Source: Chitinophagaceae bacterium T5-Br10_B2g13 (lineage in GTDB: Bacteria > Bacteroidota > Rhodothermia > Balneolales > Balneolaceae). Taken from it: a DNA stretch of 64,000 bases. The notes below the pieces were generated by a model. That model was not told the origin of the DNA. It worked only from the letters and a program-made list of their open reading frames with translations, and made no database searches. Numbering within the stretch: position 1 is the stretch's first letter; the number at the start of each line of letters is the position of its first letter. A program made the position numbers and the translations under genes. The stretch spans positions 1 to 64,000 of the forward strand of contig LKNA01000001.1 of assembly GCA_001564065.1 (NCBI GenBank). The letters run 5' to 3'. Of the stretch, positions 12,148 to 21,988 are shown piece after piece.

Positions 12148-12606
12148 TTATTCCATCCAATCGCTCTCTGTTTCAAGCGGCCGATATTTATTCCAGATTT
12201 TTTGAATTGCCTTGGGCATCTGTCCGCGTATATCATCCATCTCCCCGACAGAAGTTCGATCGTAAAGCGTCTCCAGTATAACCCGGAAGGCATCCTCTGC
12301 AGTTATTGGGTTTGTATTACCAAGACCTTCCCTGATTCTGATCATAAACTTTTCAGCATTCAATTTATCAGGTTTTCCAAACGGCTTATATCCTTCAAAA
12401 TATATACCACGAATTAAAACCGGCAGCTGTGCTGATAGCTGAAAGACCTCTTCTAAGGTTGTTCTGTCTCGTAATGTATGCAGCACCGTTTTTAAACATC
12501 CATAGGCCCAGTCAGTCCGATCCGGAAATCCGGCCCGATCGCCGATTTCGAATAGCCACTCATTTGCCTCTTTACAGTGTTTCTCAAAATTTACTTTTGT
12601 ACTCAT
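12148..12606 (-). CDS. DUF2267 domain protein
   Basis: ORF 152 aa; duplicated A(Y/F)..(L/I)..VL..L.DRT pattern and QLP..I.GIYFEGY typical of DUF2267. Confidence 0.8.
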   Translation of the reverse strand: MSTKVNFEKHCKEANEWLFEIGDRAGFPDRTDWAYGCLKTVLHTLRDRTTLEEVFQLSAQLPVLIRGIYFEGYKPFGKPDKLNAEKFMIRIREGLGNTNPITAEDAFRVILETLYDRTSVGEMDDIRGQMPKAIQKIWNKYRPLETESDWME

Positions 12607-12643
12607 TTTAACCTCATTTTTATAATTTCAGGTATGTTATTTT

Positions 12644-13525
12644 TTAAAAATTGAACAACCACCCAACTCCCACTACGAAGTCGGCTGAAGATTCGGTGAG
12701 TCCAAGTGAAAAGGATGTATTGATAAGCAGATCATCTCCCGGCATCAAACCTATCCCAAAATTCAAATTCACAGGAGGATCAAAATCATCTATCACTTTT
12801 GTAAGGCCGTTTACAGAACTACTTAGTAACCATCTTCTGTTACTCAACATTTTACCTGTACTGAAACTGTATGCCAGCACATTATTCAACTTTATATCTG
12901 CCATATCCCCGAGCCACCAATGCATCAAATCAGCAGAAAAAAACCACCTCGACTGCAGACCTTTGGAAGCCGATACTCCCACTCCTGCATCCCAGGAGCC
13001 TGTACCATAGCCTGCGGCTGGATCTGTAATTGGCACTTTAAGCTGTCCATTCACATAGATTGAGGTCATGCCGTTTGAACTGCGATAAAAACGGTATCCG
13101 CTATTTACAGACGGATCACTGAAGCTTGCCCGTGTGTACTGAGTGGTATCGGACAGAATTATAGGTTCCCTATTGCCTCCCTGGCCCGGCCCCATACCGG
13201 AACCTCCACCGCGACCTGCCCGATCTACAACACCATGCTCAGTTCCTCCCGTCGGTAATCCTCCAATGGTGTTATAAGACACCCACGGTGTGCTCTGTAC
13301 TACAAATGGCACTTGAAAAGAGATCGTAAATCGGTTTGCCCGGATAGACACCCCATTAAACAGATAGAAACTTTGTGTACTCTCTTCAAAATAATAGGAA
13401 CCGAAAGAGACCTGCGCACCGCCTGTATAACTCACTTGTTGAGAATGAGCCGGCAAGCAGCTCACTGCTTTAATCAGTAAAGCGAACAGTAAGATGACAC
13501 TTCCTTTTCCAATCCCTATCATCAT
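12644..13525 (-). CDS. Secreted/outer-membrane beta-rich protein of unknown function
   Basis: ORF 293 aa; N-terminal signal-like sequence, alternating beta-strand pattern, C-terminal aromatic VGVGWLFNF. Confidence 0.65.
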   Translation of the reverse strand: MMIGIGKGSVILLFALLIKAVSCLPAHSQQVSYTGGAQVSFGSYYFEESTQSFYLFNGVSIRANRFTISFQVPFVVQSTPWVSYNTIGGLPTGGTEHGVVDRAGRGGGSGMGPGQGGNREPIILSDTTQYTRASFSDPSVNSGYRFYRSSNGMTSIYVNGQLKVPITDPAAGYGTGSWDAGVGVSASKGLQSRWFFSADLMHWWLGDMADIKLNNVLAYSFSTGKMLSNRRWLLSSSVNGLTKVIDDFDPPVNLNFGIGLMPGDDLLINTSFSLGLTESSADFVVGVGWLFNF

Positions 13526-13541
13526 CCCGATATCCGAATAA

Positions 13542-14039
13542 TTATTGTTGATGTTCGCGCAGCCTTGTTGTCATTCGCTCCATGGTTCGAACCGCCTCTT
13601 CCATCTGTTCGGTCATGTCAGAAAGATGTTTTTGCATGCGCTCCATATCCTGTCTCATTTCACGATTCTGCATCATTTCTCTATTCTGAAGCATCAGGTC
13701 GCATCTTTCAGCAGCATTTTTCATGTTTCCTAACGTCATGCCCATCTGCTCACCAAAACGATGCATCATCTGAAATTGATTCTTCATCTGCTCATTTTGA
13801 GCCTGTTCCATCCGGCGGTTCATATCCTGCGTCATCGCCTGGGTTCGCTCCATCATTTGATTCATTCGCTGCATCATAACTTGCATCTCCTGATGTTGTC
13901 TCATCTGTTGCTGCTGCATCTGCTGCCCCGTTTGTTGAGCAAACAATGGCATGGATGAGGCCACAACGATCAAAATCAGTGCTGTTGATCTACTAACTAT
14001 TTTGAACATTTTATTCTCCTTTGATTCATGTTTTTTCAA
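13542..14039 (-). CDS. Secreted Met/Gln-rich predicted coiled-coil protein
   Basis: ORF 165 aa; signal-like N-terminus (ALILIVVASSMPLFAQ), then MQQQQMRQHQEMQVMMQRMNQMMERTQAM... composition. Confidence 0.7.
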   Translation of the reverse strand: MKKHESKENKMFKIVSRSTALILIVVASSMPLFAQQTGQQMQQQQMRQHQEMQVMMQRMNQMMERTQAMTQDMNRRMEQAQNEQMKNQFQMMHRFGEQMGMTLGNMKNAAERCDLMLQNREMMQNREMRQDMERMQKHLSDMTEQMEEAVRTMERMTTRLREHQQ

Positions 14040-14461
14040 GATTTATTATCACAAATGGAAGTTCATCACATTTTCAGCCGATCCATACAGCAGATAACCC
14101 TCTCTTTTGTAGTATAAGTTTATACTCTTTTGTACTGTTTTTCCTTGGTGGTAGTCCGGCGGGTACCTATTCCAACTACAATACTTCGTTAAACCTAATC
14201 AGGCATGGTATAACCGGTTTTACAGATAGGCATTCGTTTTTTCTCCTGTTAGTTCAAAGGGAAAATCATACATAATAAGACGTCTAAATCAGGTTTTGGG
14301 AAACCATTATTTGATAGTCTGTTTATCAACCTCCAAATAAGGTGACTGTACCCTGTGGTGATAATACTACAAGCAATTAACAGCAAATCTTACACGGCGT
14401 TATCACCTAAGTGTTTATACTACTATTGAGTTCTTTGAGCAAATGAGAGTGACTAGATTTA

Positions 14462-14650
14462 GGGCACAGTTTAATTCGTTACTACGGTAACAAGTTGAAC
14501 ATATCAGGAAATAGTCCGCTGATAAATCAATGTATCTTCAACAAAAGGAGTGCATGATTGTGCCCCGGTCTGAATTTGTGGTTAATGTTGAGCAAGCAAG
14601 TGACCCGAAAACAGCCAGAGAGAAAACAAGAGAGGTTCGGTAAAGAAACT
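14462..14650 (+). ncRNA. RNA element A, 5' structured module (unidentified class)
   Basis: Closing helix GGGCACA(14462-14468)/TGTGCCC(14559-14565); hairpin GTTAC-TACG-GTAAC (14478-14491); hairpin ATCAG-GAAATAGTCCG-CTGAT (14503-14523); CGGTC/GACCCG helix downstream. Homologous to 16294-16469. Confidence 0.65.
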
Positions 14651-14751
14651 CGAAGCCAGCAGTTAGGGGTGCCCTGGATCCAACAGGACTGAGAAAAACC
14701 CTCTGAACTTGAATCCCGATCATACGGGGCGTAAGGAAATTGTTGGCTTCG
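14651..14751 (+). ncRNA. TPP (Thi-box) riboswitch-like aptamer, element A
   Basis: P1 CGAAGCCAGCA/TGTTGGCTTCG; AGGGGTG...AACCCT (P2); CCTG/CAGG (P3); ACTGAGA junction; AACTTGAA...CCCG-ATCATA-CGGG...GCGTAAGGAAA (P4/P5). Same topology as the TPP aptamer. Confidence 0.8.
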
Positions 14752-14772
14752 ATATCTAATTAAGAGAGAGTA

Positions 14773-14809
14773 GCCCGGCAATCAATAGTCCTGATTGCCG
14801 GGCTTTTTT
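14773..14809 (+). terminator. Rho-independent terminator 21 nt after TPP-like aptamer A
   Basis: GCCCGGCAATCA-atagtcc-TGATTGCCGGGC followed by TTTTTT. Confidence 0.88.
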
Positions 14810-14906
14810 GTTCCAGGGTAGAACTTTATGAATGGAATAGTACGATACTCATGACTTAAAGTTCATCCCATATGCTGGAATAAATCGTATCAATTCAGTA
14901 TGCGAA

Positions 14907-15278
14907 TCATTTCCGAATCGGGGAACTCCTCTTTAGAACAGGTTTTGCTTCACGCAAATCATCAGTCAGATCCTCTTTGTGATGTTGGTGAAAGACGTTA
15001 ATCAAAAATAGAAATAACCATGTTCCAATAAATGAAAAGAATACTCCATCACCTATTCCTGTAGCTATGCCTATTATTCCGATACCCACACTTCCAATCA
15101 CCCCAAAAATGATGTTAGCATAAAACGAAACCCCCTCTTTTCGAATAATTAATGCCATAGAGAGCCCTACGATTAAACCGACAGAGATGTACCAATAAAT
15201 AAGTGTACCTGTTATTACATCCATGGTCTTTCTCCTAATAATTAAATGATGTGGATGATCCGGCCGGCTTTGTGCCAT
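14907..15278 (-). CDS. Small membrane protein, GlsB/YeaQ/YmgE (transglycosylase-associated)-like
   Basis: ORF 123 aa; three TM segments, IIRKEGVSFYANIIFGVIGSVGIGIIG; probable start at internal Met (MDVITG). Confidence 0.55.
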   Translation of the reverse strand: MAQSRPDHPHHLIIRRKTMDVITGTLIYWYISVGLIVGLSMALIIRKEGVSFYANIIFGVIGSVGIGIIGIATGIGDGVFFSFIGTWLFLFLINVFHQHHKEDLTDDLREAKPVLKRSSPIRK

Positions 15279-15339
15279 CTTTTCGCTTTCGCGTTAACCG
15301 GGTCTGCACCCTAAACCGACCGGTCATCCAGATATTAGC

Positions 15340-15549
15340 TCACGCTTTCTGATCTTCCAGTACAAAAGTAATCTTGGCATTCACTCTGAATTTGACCACT
15401 TTATTATTTTCCACTATCCCCTGCATGTTTTCGCAATAAACACTTCGGATATTGTGAACTGTTTTCGATGCTTCTTTCACCGCATTTTTAACAGCATCTT
15501 CCATTGTGCTTCCTTCCGCTATAACTTCAATAACTTTTGCTAAAGACAT
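15340..15549 (-). CDS. Dodecin family flavin-binding protein
   Basis: ORF 69 aa; KVIEVIAEGSTMEDAVKNAVKEASKTVHNIRSVYCENMQGIVENNKVVKFRVNAKITFVLE matches dodecin pattern. Confidence 0.92.
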   Translation of the reverse strand: MSLAKVIEVIAEGSTMEDAVKNAVKEASKTVHNIRSVYCENMQGIVENNKVVKFRVNAKITFVLEDQKA

Positions 15550-15844
15550 AATCTCTCCTATTTAAGCTTTATTTAGTGCGTTCACTTAAAGGTTATAAAT
15601 CTATTCATTCTTCAGCGTGCTTGATCTGTAAGGTCGCTGTAAAACTTTCACTGTTCGATCTGTAAGTAATCCATAACCTCAAATCGGACGGAGAATCGTA
15701 ACAATTATGTCAGGTTTTCCTTACATCAATCTCGGTGATTCCATGAGCCCAACTCCATCATTAAACTGATAACAGTTCTGTCGGCATTAGTTAATTTACA
15801 CTAAACTGAAGCTGATATATTGAATCATAAAATCCGGAGAGTTT

Positions 15845-16096
15845 ATGAGACCGTACGAAAGAAGAATAAAATTAGTCCTGGACGTACCGAAGAAAACGGG
15901 CGCTTATCATAAGTTAATGGAGCAATGGGAGAATGAAGGTGGAGCAATTAAAGTCAATCAAAGCAGTGAAATAATCCCGGAAGCAAATATACCATTTCGA
16001 GAAGGCGAAGCATTCCAGGTTGTGAGGGGATCCATCGATTTCGAGGAAGAAGGAGTCTACTACATTGTTGATATCATGAAAGTAGATATCGAGTAA
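15845..16096 (+). CDS. Small protein of unknown function (83 aa)
   Basis: ATG preceded by GGAGAG-type purine-rich sequence; compact acidic ORF. Confidence 0.6.
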   Translation: MRPYERRIKLVLDVPKKTGAYHKLMEQWENEGGAIKVNQSSEIIPEANIPFREGEAFQVVRGSIDFEEEGVYYIVDIMKVDIE

Positions 16097-16293
16097 TAGC
16101 CACCATTCAATAATCCATTAAAAGAGTAATTAACCGAACTCGGGCTGGAAATAAAACAGAAAGTCTTATTCTTCGGGTGGCTTTCACTGTGATTCAAGAA
16201 AATACTACAACTTGATTTTCTAAAGAACTACAAGGTTTTTAATAACTGTTTTTATACTGCAGTAGAAGTTATTGACATACTGTAAAAAATTAA

Positions 16294-16469
16294 GAGCACA
16301 GAGTCATTCTTATGCTACGGCTGAGAGTTATTCAGACCAGAAAAATTATCCGCTGGCTCTTTTTAAATCCTTCAAACGATTCGAAAAGTGTGCTCCGGTT
16401 AACCATTTTCCAATTCCTGAAAATTGGTTGTAAACGGTGATTTATTAAGCCGATTACAAAAAATATTGT
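16294..16469 (+). ncRNA. RNA element B, 5' structured module (homolog of element A)
   Basis: Closing helix GAGCACA(16294-16300)/TGTGCTC(16389-16395); CTACGG at 16315-16320; hairpin CCAG-AAAAATTATCCG-CTGG (16337-16356); CCGG helix start at 16395. Aligns to 14462-14650. Confidence 0.65.
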
Positions 16470-16565
16470 CGGAGTCTTGGCGGGAGTGTCTTGATTCGTT
16501 CAAGTCTGAGATACATTCTTATAACTTGAAGCAGTTAATACTGACGAAAGGAGACTGAGACTCCG
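16470..16565 (+). ncRNA. TPP (Thi-box) riboswitch-like aptamer, element B
   Basis: P1 CGGAGTCT/AGACTCCG; GAGTGT...ACATTC (P2); CTTGA-TTCGT-TCAAG (P3); TCTGAGAT junction; AACTTGAA-GCAGT-TAAT-ACTGACGAAAGG (P4/P5). Confidence 0.82.
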
Positions 16566-16584
16566 ATCAATTTCAATCAAAAAG

Positions 16585-16628
16585 AATAACCCCGTTGTGA
16601 TTCAATTCGCAACGGGGTTATTTATTAT
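16585..16628 (+). terminator. Terminator 19 nt after TPP-like aptamer B (may be bidirectional with hsp20)
   Basis: AATAACCCCGTTG...CAACGGGGTTATT stem followed by TATTATTA. Confidence 0.8.
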
Positions 16629-16711
16629 TATGTAAGTCTGCTTTACTTAAAAAGTCATCGGATGACATCCAGCCTTCCGATGACTTATCATAAACTTTCA
16701 GAAATGATCTG

Positions 16712-17158
16712 TTAATTTACCTTGATAGATTTCGGTTTTACAGTTTCCGCTTTTGGAACTACCAATTTCAAAACACCATCTTTAAATGTAGCTTGAATCT
16801 CCTCATCCTTAATGGTATCCGATAGAGTAAATGATCGGTAAAAGCTTCCACGATATCGCTCCTGACGCAGAAAATCTTTCTTCTCCTCTTTCGATTCGGT
16901 TTCTCTTTCACCGGTTATCGTAATACGTCCATCCTGAAAATTCACTTTGATATCTTTTTTATCCATACCGGGAATATCCATCTTAATCACATACTCCTTC
17001 TCATCTTCTGATATATCCACGCTTGGCGACCACATTCTTAAATCTGATCCCCCATTCTCTTTTCTCCAGGAAAATGGAACCAAATCATCAAAAAAGTGAT
17101 CCATCTCTTTTCTAAGCATATCAATAGCTCTGGGTTCTTCTCGTTTGATCATTTTCAT
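16712..17158 (-). CDS. Hsp20/alpha-crystallin small heat-shock protein
   Basis: ORF 148 aa; VDISEDEKEYVIKMDIPGMDKKDIKVNFQDGRITITGERE...RSFTLSDTI...DGVLKLVVPK. Confidence 0.95.
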   Translation of the reverse strand: MKMIKREEPRAIDMLRKEMDHFFDDLVPFSWRKENGGSDLRMWSPSVDISEDEKEYVIKMDIPGMDKKDIKVNFQDGRITITGERETESKEEKKDFLRQERYRGSFYRSFTLSDTIKDEEIQATFKDGVLKLVVPKAETVKPKSIKVN

Positions 17159-17382
17159 TTCGTTACCTCACAAATTTATGTTTCAATCCCTTGGGTTCAT
17201 CGATTGAACCCGTCTTTAGTTTATAGTATAAAGCAAGGGCATAAATTCAATCATGGCATTATTGAAGAGCAGTGTAAGAATTTGTAGAAGAGTTAATTAT
17301 GTGAATTTCTTACACGTCAGAACTATTTGTAAACGAACATCTGTAGATATGTTTTTTTTATAAAAATTGCTCTGAAAAGCTG

Positions 17383-18048
17383 TTATAGCTTATGCTCGCT
17401 TTCTACCCATTTTACCGCATGGAATATCATTTCTGTAGAGTTTTTAAAATCCATCTTCTCCTTGATGCGAGACCGGTATGTTTCCACAGTTTTAGATGCA
17501 AGATGAAGCTGCTCGGCAATTTCACCGCTGCTCTTGCCACGACCAATTAATTCAAACACTTCAAGTTCCCGATCACTTAAAATATCAATCGATGAAACTG
17601 ATCCTTCTTTTTTCCCATGCATGGCATTCATCAGCAGTTTCTCGTTCAACGAGTCACTCACATAGATTCCGCCATTTAGAATTTTCCGTACAGCTTTCAC
17701 CAGCTTTTCACTCGGCTCAAACTTCATAATGTACCCCTTTGCCCCGGCTCTAAGCGCTCTCTCCCCATAAAGAGACTCTTCGTGGCGGGAAACAACCAGG
17801 ATCTTCATGTCGGGATCCTGAAAAATAATATTCTTAACCAGCTCTATCCCATTCATTCCGGGAAGTGACACATCCACCAGCAGCAGATCCAGTTTATCTT
17901 TATCCAAAATTTCCAGTACATCCTCAGCCTTTTCACACTGATAAGCCACTTCCAGATCCGGTTCCATTTCCAGCGTACTGGCAAGTCCTTTTCTCATCAT
18001 AGGATGATCGTCAACAATTAAAACTCTCTTCTTGAATGGATTATTCAT
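17383..18048 (-). CDS. NarL/LuxR-family response regulator
   Basis: ORF 221 aa; VLIVDDHPMMRKGL, LLLVDVSLPGMNGIEL, LSDRELEVFELIGRGKSSGEIAEQLHLASKTVETYRSRIKEKM. Confidence 0.95.
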   Translation of the reverse strand: MNNPFKKRVLIVDDHPMMRKGLASTLEMEPDLEVAYQCEKAEDVLEILDKDKLDLLLVDVSLPGMNGIELVKNIIFQDPDMKILVVSRHEESLYGERALRAGAKGYIMKFEPSEKLVKAVRKILNGGIYVSDSLNEKLLMNAMHGKKEGSVSSIDILSDRELEVFELIGRGKSSGEIAEQLHLASKTVETYRSRIKEKMDFKNSTEMIFHAVKWVESEHKL

Positions 18049-18058
18049 ACCCTCTCCT

Positions 18059-19459
18059 TTAATTGAAATGTTGCATATTGTTTGGAACGATGCACCGTAT
18101 CTTTGTCAAGCCATCATCGGTTCTGGAGATTTCAAATACACCTCCCATCACCCGTGCCCGGTGTTTCATAATTTCAATACCCGACCCATCTGCAGACTCA
18201 TTTTCTACCGAAAAACCAATACCATCATCTTCTACAGATAGCGCTGTATGGTGTTTATTATTCGAAAGTCTCACTTGTATGATATCCGGTTTGCCATGCT
18301 TAATTGCATTATTAATAGCCTCTTGTGCTATTCTGTACAGATGTAAAGCCAGGTTGTGGTCGTATACTTCAGCATCTTCACAATCGTAAAACACACATGC
18401 TATTCCCGTCAACTTCTCCGTTCGCTTACACAAATCCTGAAGTGCAACACTGAGTCCTTTCTTTTCAATATCTACCTGGACCAAACCGCGGGCAAGCTTT
18501 CTGGCAAACTCGTCTGCTTCTTGAATCATTTTCGCAATTTCGTCTACTTCGTCTGAACATTTTGCTCCGCGTATTTTCAACTTTTTCGCAAGATTTTCTG
18601 CCAGCATCCGGGTACCGGTCAGCATCTGCCCTAGTCCGTCATGCAAATCAATGCCAATTTTCCTCCTCTCCTCCTGCCCGGATTCCAGTATTCGTCGCTC
18701 AAGATTTCTTCGAGCTGATAAATCTCGAATAATACCTGTAAAAAAACGGGTTCCCTCCCATTCAACTTCATTAACCGTAAATTCTATCGGAAATACTTTT
18801 CCGTCTGAACTCTTCCCCTGATATTCCCTGCTCTCCCCGGCAATAGTAGACACATCAGGGTGAACTGATTTTCCAAGTTGTTCCTCAATCTGATCGCTGA
18901 ATGGAAATGACAAAAGTAAAAGGAATGACTCCCCCTCAATCTCTTCTTTTCTATACCCAAAAAGGTCTTCTGCTCTAAAATTACTTTTTAATATAGTACC
19001 GCTTTCATCAAACGTAATAATTGCATCCGATGACGCATTAAATATTGTGTGGGCAAGTGCTTCATTCCTTTTAAGCTTATTTTCTGTTTTTATATGCTTT
19101 TCAATTTCAACTAGCGAAATCACGCAGCCGGATTTATGACTATTATTAAACAAAATATTTGCTCTTACATCGAGCCAAACTTTTCGTCCGTCACTTTTTA
19201 AACCGTGCCACTTTCCCCGAACAGACTCTCCACGTAAGCAGGACAAAACAACATATTTAAAAGCAGAAACATCCTCATCGCCATACAGAGAACGGATATT
19301 TTTCCCCCTCAGTTGTTTGCGATTGTATCCGAAAATCTTCTGTGAAGCTGAGTTTGAGTAAGTGATGTGCCCATTCAAGTCTGTAATGATAACACCGTGT
19401 TGAATACACTCAATTATTTTTTTATAGCTCGTATACGTTAATAAAGACATGGAATTCAC
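18059..19459 (-). CDS. PAS-domain sensor histidine kinase (HisKA_3 type)
   Basis: ORF 466 aa; two PAS domains, EERRKIGIDLHDGLGQMLTGTRMLAENL, HATPase motif DDGIGF...GSGIEIMKHRARVMGG. Confidence 0.95.
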   Translation of the reverse strand: MNSMSLLTYTSYKKIIECIQHGVIITDLNGHITYSNSASQKIFGYNRKQLRGKNIRSLYGDEDVSAFKYVVLSCLRGESVRGKWHGLKSDGRKVWLDVRANILFNNSHKSGCVISLVEIEKHIKTENKLKRNEALAHTIFNASSDAIITFDESGTILKSNFRAEDLFGYRKEEIEGESFLLLLSFPFSDQIEEQLGKSVHPDVSTIAGESREYQGKSSDGKVFPIEFTVNEVEWEGTRFFTGIIRDLSARRNLERRILESGQEERRKIGIDLHDGLGQMLTGTRMLAENLAKKLKIRGAKCSDEVDEIAKMIQEADEFARKLARGLVQVDIEKKGLSVALQDLCKRTEKLTGIACVFYDCEDAEVYDHNLALHLYRIAQEAINNAIKHGKPDIIQVRLSNNKHHTALSVEDDGIGFSVENESADGSGIEIMKHRARVMGGVFEISRTDDGLTKIRCIVPNNMQHFN

Positions 19460-19598
19460 CCCTCAATCTAATCTTTGAACCAAGTTACTTCATTTATCTC
19501 TCACTTTATTATCCCTTCTCCTTAAAAAACAGACCACTTTACTATACCAGCATACTCAAAAATTTTACAAAATGAATCATAAAAAACCCTTCATTGGA

Positions 19599-19615
19599 GT
19601 AAGGAATTTCCCTAC
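19599..19615. promoter_or_regulatory. Candidate inverted-repeat operator between PAS kinase and flavodoxin genes
   Basis: GTAAGGAATTTCCCTAC; related sequences at 3174-3190, 15709-15724, 17272-17315 and 30344-30360. Confidence 0.5.
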
Positions 19616-19884
19616 AAATGGAATAGGCGCTAATTTCAAAAGGTTGTAAACGCAATCCGTATTAAATTTCTGAAAAAGACACTAACACCATTCATAATCA
19701 ATGTTATATGAGTCTATTGCAACGCAGAGAGTTACAGTTTAAAGTTTGAGTGATACCCCTGAATTTCAGGTATTTCATTACATCGTAGTGAGGAGTTTCA
19801 CCAACACTATATCGTGATCATGCTGATACTTCATGAACTCACTTATCGATATATTTAACAATATCCATTAAATAAGGGGGAATT

Positions 19885-20403
19885 ATGAAGCTGATGATTG
19901 TTTACGCCACAACTGAGGGACACACCAGAACTATTGCTGAATTTCTTGAAAAAGAAGCGGAAAAAAAGGAGATCACTGCCGGCCTTTTTGATGCAACCGT
20001 CAAGCCGCCATCACCTGAAGAGTATGATGCCGTGATTGTGGCCGCCTCCATCCATGCGGGGAAATATCAGTCCGCCATCGAGCATTTTGTGCAGGAACAT
20101 CATCAATCACTCAACCGGATGAAATCCCTCTTTGTTTCAGTTAGCCTCACTGCCGCTGCCGACGAGCCTGAATCGTGGAAGGAGCTAAAACAGCAGACTG
20201 AAGATTTTCTTTTAAGCACCGGATGGAATCCGGCTCATGTTGAATATACAGCCGGAGCCCTTCTCTATACGAAGTATGATTATCTGAAGAGATTTATCAT
20301 GCGAATGATTTCCAAGAAAGCCGGCGGGGACACAGACACATCAAAAGATCACGTCTATACGGACTGGGAAAAATTAAAATCTGTTTTAGGCCGTGTCATT
20401 TAA
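19885..20403 (+). CDS. Flavodoxin-domain protein (HemG-like)
   Basis: ORF 172 aa; MKLMIVYATTEGHTRTIAEFLEKEA...YDAVIVAASIHAGKYQSAIEHFV; GGG-rich ATG context. Confidence 0.85.
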   Translation: MKLMIVYATTEGHTRTIAEFLEKEAEKKEITAGLFDATVKPPSPEEYDAVIVAASIHAGKYQSAIEHFVQEHHQSLNRMKSLFVSVSLTAAADEPESWKELKQQTEDFLLSTGWNPAHVEYTAGALLYTKYDYLKRFIMRMISKKAGGDTDTSKDHVYTDWEKLKSVLGRVI

Positions 20404-20486
20404 ATGTTCTGTGAGCCACAGTTTTTATATTTCTCTCGTATCAAAGAATTCAGTTTATTAGAAAAACTGCATTTTAAATTTACTAA

Positions 20487-21449
20487 GTGCCCATGGAAGC
20501 CAAAGTAGTATTGATTACAGGAGCTAATTCAGGGATTGGAAAAGCTGCAACACTCAGGTTTGCCGGCGAAGGATATACTGTATTGATGGCGTGCAGAAAT
20601 CTTGAAAAAAGCCGTCCGGTTCAGCAGGAGATCATCAACAAAACCAACAATACTTCTGTTTACCTTAAAGTTTTGGATCTCGCGTCTTTCAAATCAATTG
20701 AACAGTTTTGTGAGGAGATAAAACAGGAGTTCGACCATATTGACATTCTGATCCATAACGCTGCTTATTTCAACCACGGTGCAGAATATACTCTCAGCCC
20801 TGATGGTATTGAAATCACTTTTGCAACAAATGTAGTCGGCCCCTACCTGCTGACTCACCTCCTAAAAAAGCACCTTTCCAAGTCTGATGACCCACGAGTT
20901 TTAAATGCCGGGAGTAACATCATCAAACATTTTCTGAACCCTAAAAAGGAGATCGATTTTTCAAATTTAAGAGGCGAAAATGTGAATGATCCGTCTCACA
21001 GCGTCTATACCAACTATCGGAATTCAAAAATGGCTCTTTTGATGCTCACCTTTAAAATGGCGCGAGAGTTTAGAAATGATGGGATCAAGGTCAATTCCAT
21101 TCAGATCAATGGTGCAAAAATGTCTAAGGAAGCACTTCAAAAAGTAAAACCGGGGTGGAGAGTTATTGCACATATACAGAACCTGTTCTTCCGCCCACCG
21201 GAATTTACGGCTGATCTTTACTACGATTTATGTACTGCAGAGGAGTTCAAAAACCAGACCGGGAAACACTTTAATCACCGGAAAGATGTGATGGTGCCCG
21301 CAAAGGTAAATAGTGGTATAATAACTGATATTAAACAGGGAATTGGAGCAGATGTATTTCCTGCTTATGCCTTGGACGAAAACACAATCGGCAAAGTCTG
21401 GCAAACTTGTAAAGAATTCACTGAACAATCCTCTGATAAAGCACCATGA
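20487..21449 (+). CDS. SDR family NAD(P)-dependent oxidoreductase
   Basis: ORF 320 aa; VLITGANSGIGKAATLRFA, LIHNAAYF, YTNYRNSKMALLML (atypical YxxSK spacing). Confidence 0.9.
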   Translation: MPMEAKVVLITGANSGIGKAATLRFAGEGYTVLMACRNLEKSRPVQQEIINKTNNTSVYLKVLDLASFKSIEQFCEEIKQEFDHIDILIHNAAYFNHGAEYTLSPDGIEITFATNVVGPYLLTHLLKKHLSKSDDPRVLNAGSNIIKHFLNPKKEIDFSNLRGENVNDPSHSVYTNYRNSKMALLMLTFKMAREFRNDGIKVNSIQINGAKMSKEALQKVKPGWRVIAHIQNLFFRPPEFTADLYYDLCTAEEFKNQTGKHFNHRKDVMVPAKVNSGIITDIKQGIGADVFPAYALDENTIGKVWQTCKEFTEQSSDKAP

Positions 21450-21988
21450 AACGTAAAACTGAAAAAGCATTTAACAGGCTGGAAAAACAGCGGATGAACC
21501 TGCTTTCACACTATCGATCTCTTTCTGATGAGCAGCTGCGTTTCAATCCCGGTCCTGAGTCATGGAATTTACTCCAGGTTATGCGTCATCTTGTTACGGC
21601 AGAAAAACAGTCACTGATTTATATTCAGCGTAAAATCAGCCACCCGGAAAATACACCAAAAGCCGGGGCCGGCTCCCGATTTCGTTCACTGCTACTGAAG
21701 CTGGCCTTGCTTCTGCCCATCAAGTTTAAAGCTCCAAAAATTGCCGAGGTTGAGGAAGCATATCCGGATTTCAATGAAATGGTTTTGGAATGGGATGAAG
21801 TTCGAAATGAGTATCAGGAGATGATATTAAAGAACGATGCGGAAACTCTATCAAAAGCTCTTTATACACATCCAAGAGCAGGGAAGCTAAATATTAAGCA
21901 GGCGATCGAATTTATGGAAGATCATGTAGCACATCATAATAAGCAGGTTGAACGGATTATAAATCACCCTCAATTTCCCGATAAATAA
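21446..21988 (+). CDS. DinB-like damage-inducible domain protein
   Basis: ORF 180 aa; LSDEQLRFNPGPESWNLLQVMRHLVTAEKQ...FMEDHVAHHNKQVERI. Confidence 0.75.
   Translation: MKRKTEKAFNRLEKQRMNLLSHYRSLSDEQLRFNPGPESWNLLQVMRHLVTAEKQSLIYIQRKISHPENTPKAGAGSRFRSLLLKLALLLPIKFKAPKIAEVEEAYPDFNEMVLEWDEVRNEYQEMILKNDAETLSKALYTHPRAGKLNIKQAIEFMEDHVAHHNKQVERIINHPQFPDK

Follow-up and report, generated by a model that had tools for sequence, protein, structure and literature searches.

A structured core RNA of Balneolaceae with candidate short and TPP-aptamer-linked forms

Results

Organization of elements A and B

The window, a 64,000-nt stretch of contig LKNA01000001.1 from a Balneolaceae genome, includes a stress-type gene island (12148–21988) encoding DUF2267, dodecin, Hsp20, LuxR-type response regulator, PAS histidine kinase, Flavodoxin_5, SDR and DinB proteins. 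Two structured elements, A and B, lie within the island. An 83-aa ORF featuring no Pfam match (15845–16096, plus strand) is located upstream of B, and a clear homologue of this ORF is found upstream of an A-like copy in L045. The next ORFs downstream are on the opposite strand in both cases: behind A, an ORF having no Pfam match (14907–15278), and behind B, the Hsp20 gene (16712–17158). ARAGORN detected no tRNA or tmRNA genes in the window.

A and B share the same order of promoter, core, linker, TPP-like aptamer and terminator (Table 1). Since a TPP-like aptamer and a terminator are found 3' of each 5' module, both elements were read as promoter-core-linker-aptamer-terminator units. Transcription of B would start at approximately 16266–16270.

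Table 1. Features of elements A and B (window coordinates).
Feature	Position	Strand	Basis
B promoter half-site 1, AAATACTACA	16200–16209	+	Spacing recurs across copies; pattern search of 1.16 Mb
B promoter half-site 2, CTACA	16228–16232	+	Same spacing and pattern search
B TATACT, presumed -10 box	16254–16259	+	Same spacing and pattern search
B core P1, 5' strand, GAGCACA	16294–16300	+	Pairing across homologues
B core P2 hairpin, C(UACG)G loop	16301–16333	+	Homologue alignment
B core P3 hairpin, loop with conserved AAA and CCG (16350–16352)	16334–16358	+	
B core P4 hairpin, variable sequence	16359–16388	+	
B core P1, 3' strand, TGTGCTC	16389–16395	+	Pairing across homologues
B likely pseudoknot CGG, partner 16350–16352	16396–16398	+	CCU/AGG co-changes in homologues
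B TPP-aptamer-like domain, long P1 (16469–16480/16555–16566)	16469–16569	+	RF00059 match 16472–16569 and family alignment
B intrinsic terminator, 17-bp hairpin, then T-rich	16584–16623	+	
A promoter: CTACA 14367–14371, TTACA 14390–14394, TATACT 14416–14421	14367–14421	+	18/21 spacing as in B
A four-way-junction core	14462–14568	+	Homologue pairing
A core P1	14462–14467/14560–14565	+	
A core P2	14469–14500	+	
A core P3	14502–14524	+	
A core P4	14525–14559	+	
A core CGG	14566–14568	+	
A TPP-aptamer-like domain	14650–14754	+	RF00059 match 14655–14754 and family alignment
A purine-rich stretch TTAAGAGAGAG, between aptamer and terminator	14760–14770	+	Recurrent in copies
A intrinsic terminator, 13-bp hairpin and T-run	14772–14810	+	

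Fold of the core RNA

The core (16294–16398 in B) is a four-way junction with a likely pseudoknot. P1 spans 7 bp and P2 about 10–13 bp, the P2 loop being usually of the UACG type. The P3 loop, 10–13 nt in length, contains AAA and CCG, P4 is variable, and a conserved CGG occurs immediately 3' of P1. Covariation was scored in 62 distinct copies for P1, P2 and the pseudoknot formed by the P3-loop CCG and the 3' CGG; P3 and P4 were assessed on class-specific alignments and single folds. Pairing is seen in 90.4% of cells, compared with 33–41% when slid, and double-sided changes occur in 254 cells, compared with 83 in shuffles. None of 500 shuffles attained any of the five core-structure measures. 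The pseudoknot co-variants (CCU/AGG and CUG/CAG) come from few and related genomes, and the pseudoknot is consequently likely rather than proven.

The 5' module of B had been described in an earlier note, based on the window alone, as an independent second copy of A carrying helix-preserving changes. The comparative data bear this out, as both elements are found by a model from which they were left out, and 18 of the 22 base pairs in P1, P2 and the pseudoknot carry double-sided changes. The strings quoted in the note are all in place: the two P1 strands of B pair and enclose 88 nt, CTACGG maps at 16315–16320, and CCAG and CTGG map at 16337–16340 and 16353–16356. The folds of both elements are better than those of dinucleotide shuffles (z = -5.45 for A and -2.45 for B). 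From CTACGG onward, B and A align over 26 nt without gaps, as reported, with identity at 16 positions. Random 340-nt stretches drawn from the window reach at least 16 identities in 2.8% of cases; the match does stand out, but only mildly, and is by itself modest. What did not hold is the CCG...CGG helix containing CCAATT-AATTGG (16395–16437), which is confined to B and not conserved; in homologues, the CGG pairs instead with the CCG of the P3 loop. The 3' half of B went unnoticed, as did the pseudoknot and the conserved hairpins P2 and P4.

Distribution of the core RNA

The deciding evidence that the note's observation is real came from homology. Within the phylum, 10 of 399 genomes, every one from a single family, contain the pattern GRGCACA-N40-55-CCGCYG-N28-45-TGTGCYCCGGT, and the reversed pattern has no match in the same 399 genomes. 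In 85,488 species genomes, the core pattern identified 13 stretches, 12 of which are assigned to Balneolaceae or to its genera Rhodohalobacter, Gracilimonas and Fodinibius. No match was found in viral contigs with the pattern, or in plasmids by DNA similarity search. A metagenome-assembled genome labelled Desulfobacteraceae (L074, JAABSQ010000535.1) carries a Balneolaceae-type copy at the end of a 2.5-kb contig. Given the size of the contig and an upstream sequence of the type found in Balneolaceae copies, L074 is probably mis-binned.

A covariance model derived from 22 copies (R1) gave 73 hits spread over 45 of 98 Balneolaceae genomes. Another model (R2) was derived from 34 copies lacking the TPP-like domain, with neither A nor B among them; it recovered both elements, with 64 bits for A (E=7e-9) and 51 bits for B (E=3e-6), E-values of covariance models being rough. 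R2 matched 48 of the 98 Balneolaceae genomes and none of 154 other genomes of the class, many genomes of the sample being draft or metagenome assemblies. Conservation in sister species is hence evident with either model. As judged by R2, element A (14462–14568) is a homologue of the B core, and among the genomes of the class searched the core RNA family occurs only in Balneolaceae.

Searches of Rfam 15 yielded no core match in the window at the gathering score, nothing credible for the core in the 14000–16720 interval at E up to 10, and none at the homologous core loci at E up to 1. In the open-paper literature, a scope that leaves aside preprints and most subscription journals, we found no earlier description of the core RNA, no sRNA with a TPP aptamer and no sRNA promoter with DnaA boxes. 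The core probably represents a previously undescribed small RNA family of marine and saline-soil Balneolaceae.

The TPP-like aptamer

A permissive Rfam scan of the 14000–16720 interval revealed two strong, non-chance matches, both to RF00059. The domains of A (53.4 bits, E=5e-9) and B (47.3 bits, E=1.6e-7) score just below the gathering cut-off of 54.3 bits, and that of B contains several mispairs. Twelve homologous aptamers at other loci exceed the cut-off (54.4–68 bits), and homologues from other genera score 60–68 bits. The RF00059 matches lie at a steady position 3' of the core. In an alignment of 26 aptamer-linked copies (A, B and 24 others), CUGAGA is invariant in every copy, the CG of the pyrophosphate helix is retained except in L046:4577 and L131, and 11 of the 18 helical pairs feature double-sided changes. 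In P4, a fixed CUUG...WAAG signature replaces CCUG...UAGG and marks the aptamer-linked copies as a sub-group.

A purine run (TTAAGAGAGAG or similar) separates aptamer and terminator in 12 of 27 aptamer-linked copies. Intrinsic terminators, strong in A and B, follow the aptamer in these two and in many other copies, and are unclear in some within the stretch read. No switching structure joining aptamer P1 to the terminator was found. A GGCUU/AAGCC antiterminator, sought by eye between the two, was discarded, as it fits a few copies (e.g., L034) and not others.

No thi gene is found behind A or B, where the next ORFs run on the opposite strand. The same genome encodes one canonical TPP riboswitch (68.5 bits), located before a TonB-type receptor. 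With sub-cut-off scores and no thi gene, A and B do not qualify as ordinary TPP riboswitches; their 3' domain probably works like one. Aptamer-linked copies tend to occur in pairs, 0.4–1.8 kb apart (L034, L046, L118 and the window). Elsewhere, two above-cut-off TPP riboswitches lie on opposite strands at L038:3981–4296, facing apart with about 125 nt between them, likely marking a divergent promoter region. In L157, a truncated copy of the aptamer-linked type lies approximately 3 kb away from a group II intron (RF02001, 82.5 bits; L157:3713–3894).

Promoter and neighbours of the long form

Aptamer-linked copies share a rigid promoter layout, AANYCYTACA-N18-YTRCA-N20/21-TATANT. This fixed-spacing pattern was used in place of a previous one, CYTACA-N17-21-CYTACA-N15-24-TATAMT, which was too narrow. 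In both strands of the collected loci, totalling 1.16 Mb, it has 20 matches, 19 of which lie directly before a core-RNA copy, while the twentieth lies some 200 nt before another; the reversed pattern has none in the 1.16 Mb. Recurrent neighbours are located upstream, and encode either an MMPL transporter (L046, L047, L111, L113, L118, L122 and L125) or a Flavodoxin_5 protein (L034, L035 and L115). That the LuxR-type regulator adjoining B (17383–18048) binds CYTACA is only a guess.

The stand-alone short form

Many core copies have no aptamer. These stand-alone copies are about 120 nt long, end with the invariant CGG and a U-run (T-run in DNA), and are preceded by a TTGACA...TGCTAATTA promoter 35 nt before P1. 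Their neighbours are diverse, and no gene is common to them. In some genomes, copies ending in a U-run form clusters, with two or three of them inside a stretch of a few kb (L134, L139, L138, L127 and L125). Among cultured carriers, Gracilimonas tropica DSM 19535 has two aptamer-linked copies (L118), and Rhodohalobacter sulfatireducens has one aptamer-less core followed by a terminator of its own (L113) as well as two stand-alone copies (L133 and L158).

We identified 36 stand-alone copies preceded by DnaA boxes, usually two to four of them repeated in tandem every 11–12 bp or so, with the sequences TGTGGATAA and TGTGGAAAA. The boxes are found at -56 to -90 before the module (e.g., in L134, L138, L139, L127 and L141), against a background of 0.38 per kb. 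No DnaA boxes occur at aptamer-linked copies, A and B included. Across the family, the tandem-box pattern is rare, with typically about one site per genome in addition to the sRNA sites. The sites examined, one in the same genome as A and B and one in a relative, are both upstream of dnaA (Bac_DnaA, E=5e-67), indicating that the motif is the DnaA box of this lineage.

Discussion

The features described are best read as those of a trans-acting sRNA family having two transcriptional inputs, the long form of which carries a TPP-type sensor. We consider it fairly probable that B, and likewise A, is a complete noncoding, stand-alone gene for a long-form RNA of about 330–360 nt. The evidence is comparative throughout. 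In anatomy, and in anatomy only, the units match trans-acting sRNAs, as they have their own promoter and terminator and no coding gene attached.

The RNA is expected to be transcribed and to act in trans. The core would be the effector, as it is the sole part common to the long and the short stand-alone forms. The 3' aptamer may bind TPP or a close derivative and set how stable the long form is or how its 3' end folds, and output would thereby track thiamine status; ligand-dependent stability or 3'-end folding is our preferred guess because no antiterminator was found. Transcription of the long form would be switched by a dedicated regulator, presumably an activator, at the tandem CYTACA sites. 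In sister genomes, the short form, placed under DnaA boxes, may be controlled by DnaA. Joined together, these steps outline a tentative scheme, which we regard as possible but clearly less secure than the sRNA gene itself: one effector would be produced in two forms, the short one under DnaA, reporting replication or the ATP-DnaA state, and the long one under the tandem-repeat regulator and, through the fused aptamer, TPP. The position of the aptamer, 3' of the effector, is opposite to that in known riboswitch-controlled sRNAs and counts against the reading of A and B as sRNA genes with a sensor, as do their sub-cut-off aptamer scores, the mispairs of B, the failure to find a switching structure, the few cores close before an ORF and the copies with no clear terminator in the stretch read.

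Aptamer followed by terminator is classic attenuator anatomy, and two cores (L110:6578 and L108:3138) lie about 20 and 70 nt before a same-strand ORF, as would be expected if the element were a cis-acting leader, working as riboswitch or attenuator for the gene next to it. We nevertheless hold such a leader to be quite unlikely: the next ORF is convergent for both A and B, most copies lack a consistent downstream gene, and the conserved neighbour, MMPL transporter or Flavodoxin_5, is found upstream instead. Somewhat less unlikely, yet still doubtful, is that the aptamer is a decayed TPP riboswitch which lost ligand binding and survives as the structural tail of an sRNA. The sub-threshold scores of A and B, the very long P1, the fixed CUUG/WAAG departure from the canonical P4 sequence and the loss of the binding CG in one copy (L046:4577) would all fit decay. 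However, none of 26 copies departs from CUGAGA and almost all keep the CG, double-sided changes maintain the helices, and homologues in other genera reach 60–68 bits.

The boxes at 36 stand-alone copies might also point not to an RNA gene but to a DNA-level element, such as a site for DnaA titration or replication control. Apart from these copies, the motif mostly occurs once per genome, and at the two sites read it lies upstream of dnaA. A DNA-level element appears very improbable, since no aptamer-linked copy carries boxes, A and B among them, the core helices covary, and the fold is flanked in one orientation by a promoter and an invariant U-run.

If the scheme is true, the family would constitute a two-branch sRNA circuit coupling the cell cycle to coenzyme status. 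Balneolota, a lineage for which our open-paper search found no RNA work, gain a well-supported structured RNA family. A TPP-type aptamer would reside inside a stand-alone RNA instead of the leader of a thi mRNA, and a number of candidate sRNA genes would come under tandem DnaA boxes.

Comparison with known systems

The 3' domain matches the model of the TPP riboswitch (THI element, RF00059) over its full length, with CUGAGA and the pyrophosphate-helix CG in common. A and B differ from RF00059 members in scoring below the gathering value, in having no thi gene behind them, in their very long P1, in carrying CUUG/WAAG rather than CCUG/UAGG, and in the unrelated conserved core that precedes the aptamer. 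Tandem riboswitches such as TPP/HMP-PP (PMC9481103) similarly place two structured domains one after the other, a TPP-type domain among them. In contrast, A and B have no adjacent metabolic gene, and their core also occurs alone as a terminated RNA.

EutX and Rli55 are sRNAs that are controlled by a B12 riboswitch and sequester EutV (PMC7602753). They likewise include a vitamin-coenzyme riboswitch domain within the transcription unit of a trans-acting sRNA, and are the nearest functional precedent, with the opposite domain order. In EutX and Rli55, the riboswitch is 5' of the effector, with a terminator between the two, and terminates sRNA synthesis; A and B do not show this order, as their aptamer is 3' of the core, and the vitamin would be B1. 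For the short form, a counterpart is EcpR1, a cell-cycle sRNA of Sinorhizobium (PMC4414408), which, compared by description, is also tied to the replication and cell-cycle system. EcpR1 itself modulates cell-cycle regulation, whereas in Balneolaceae it is the promoter of the short form that contains DnaA boxes.
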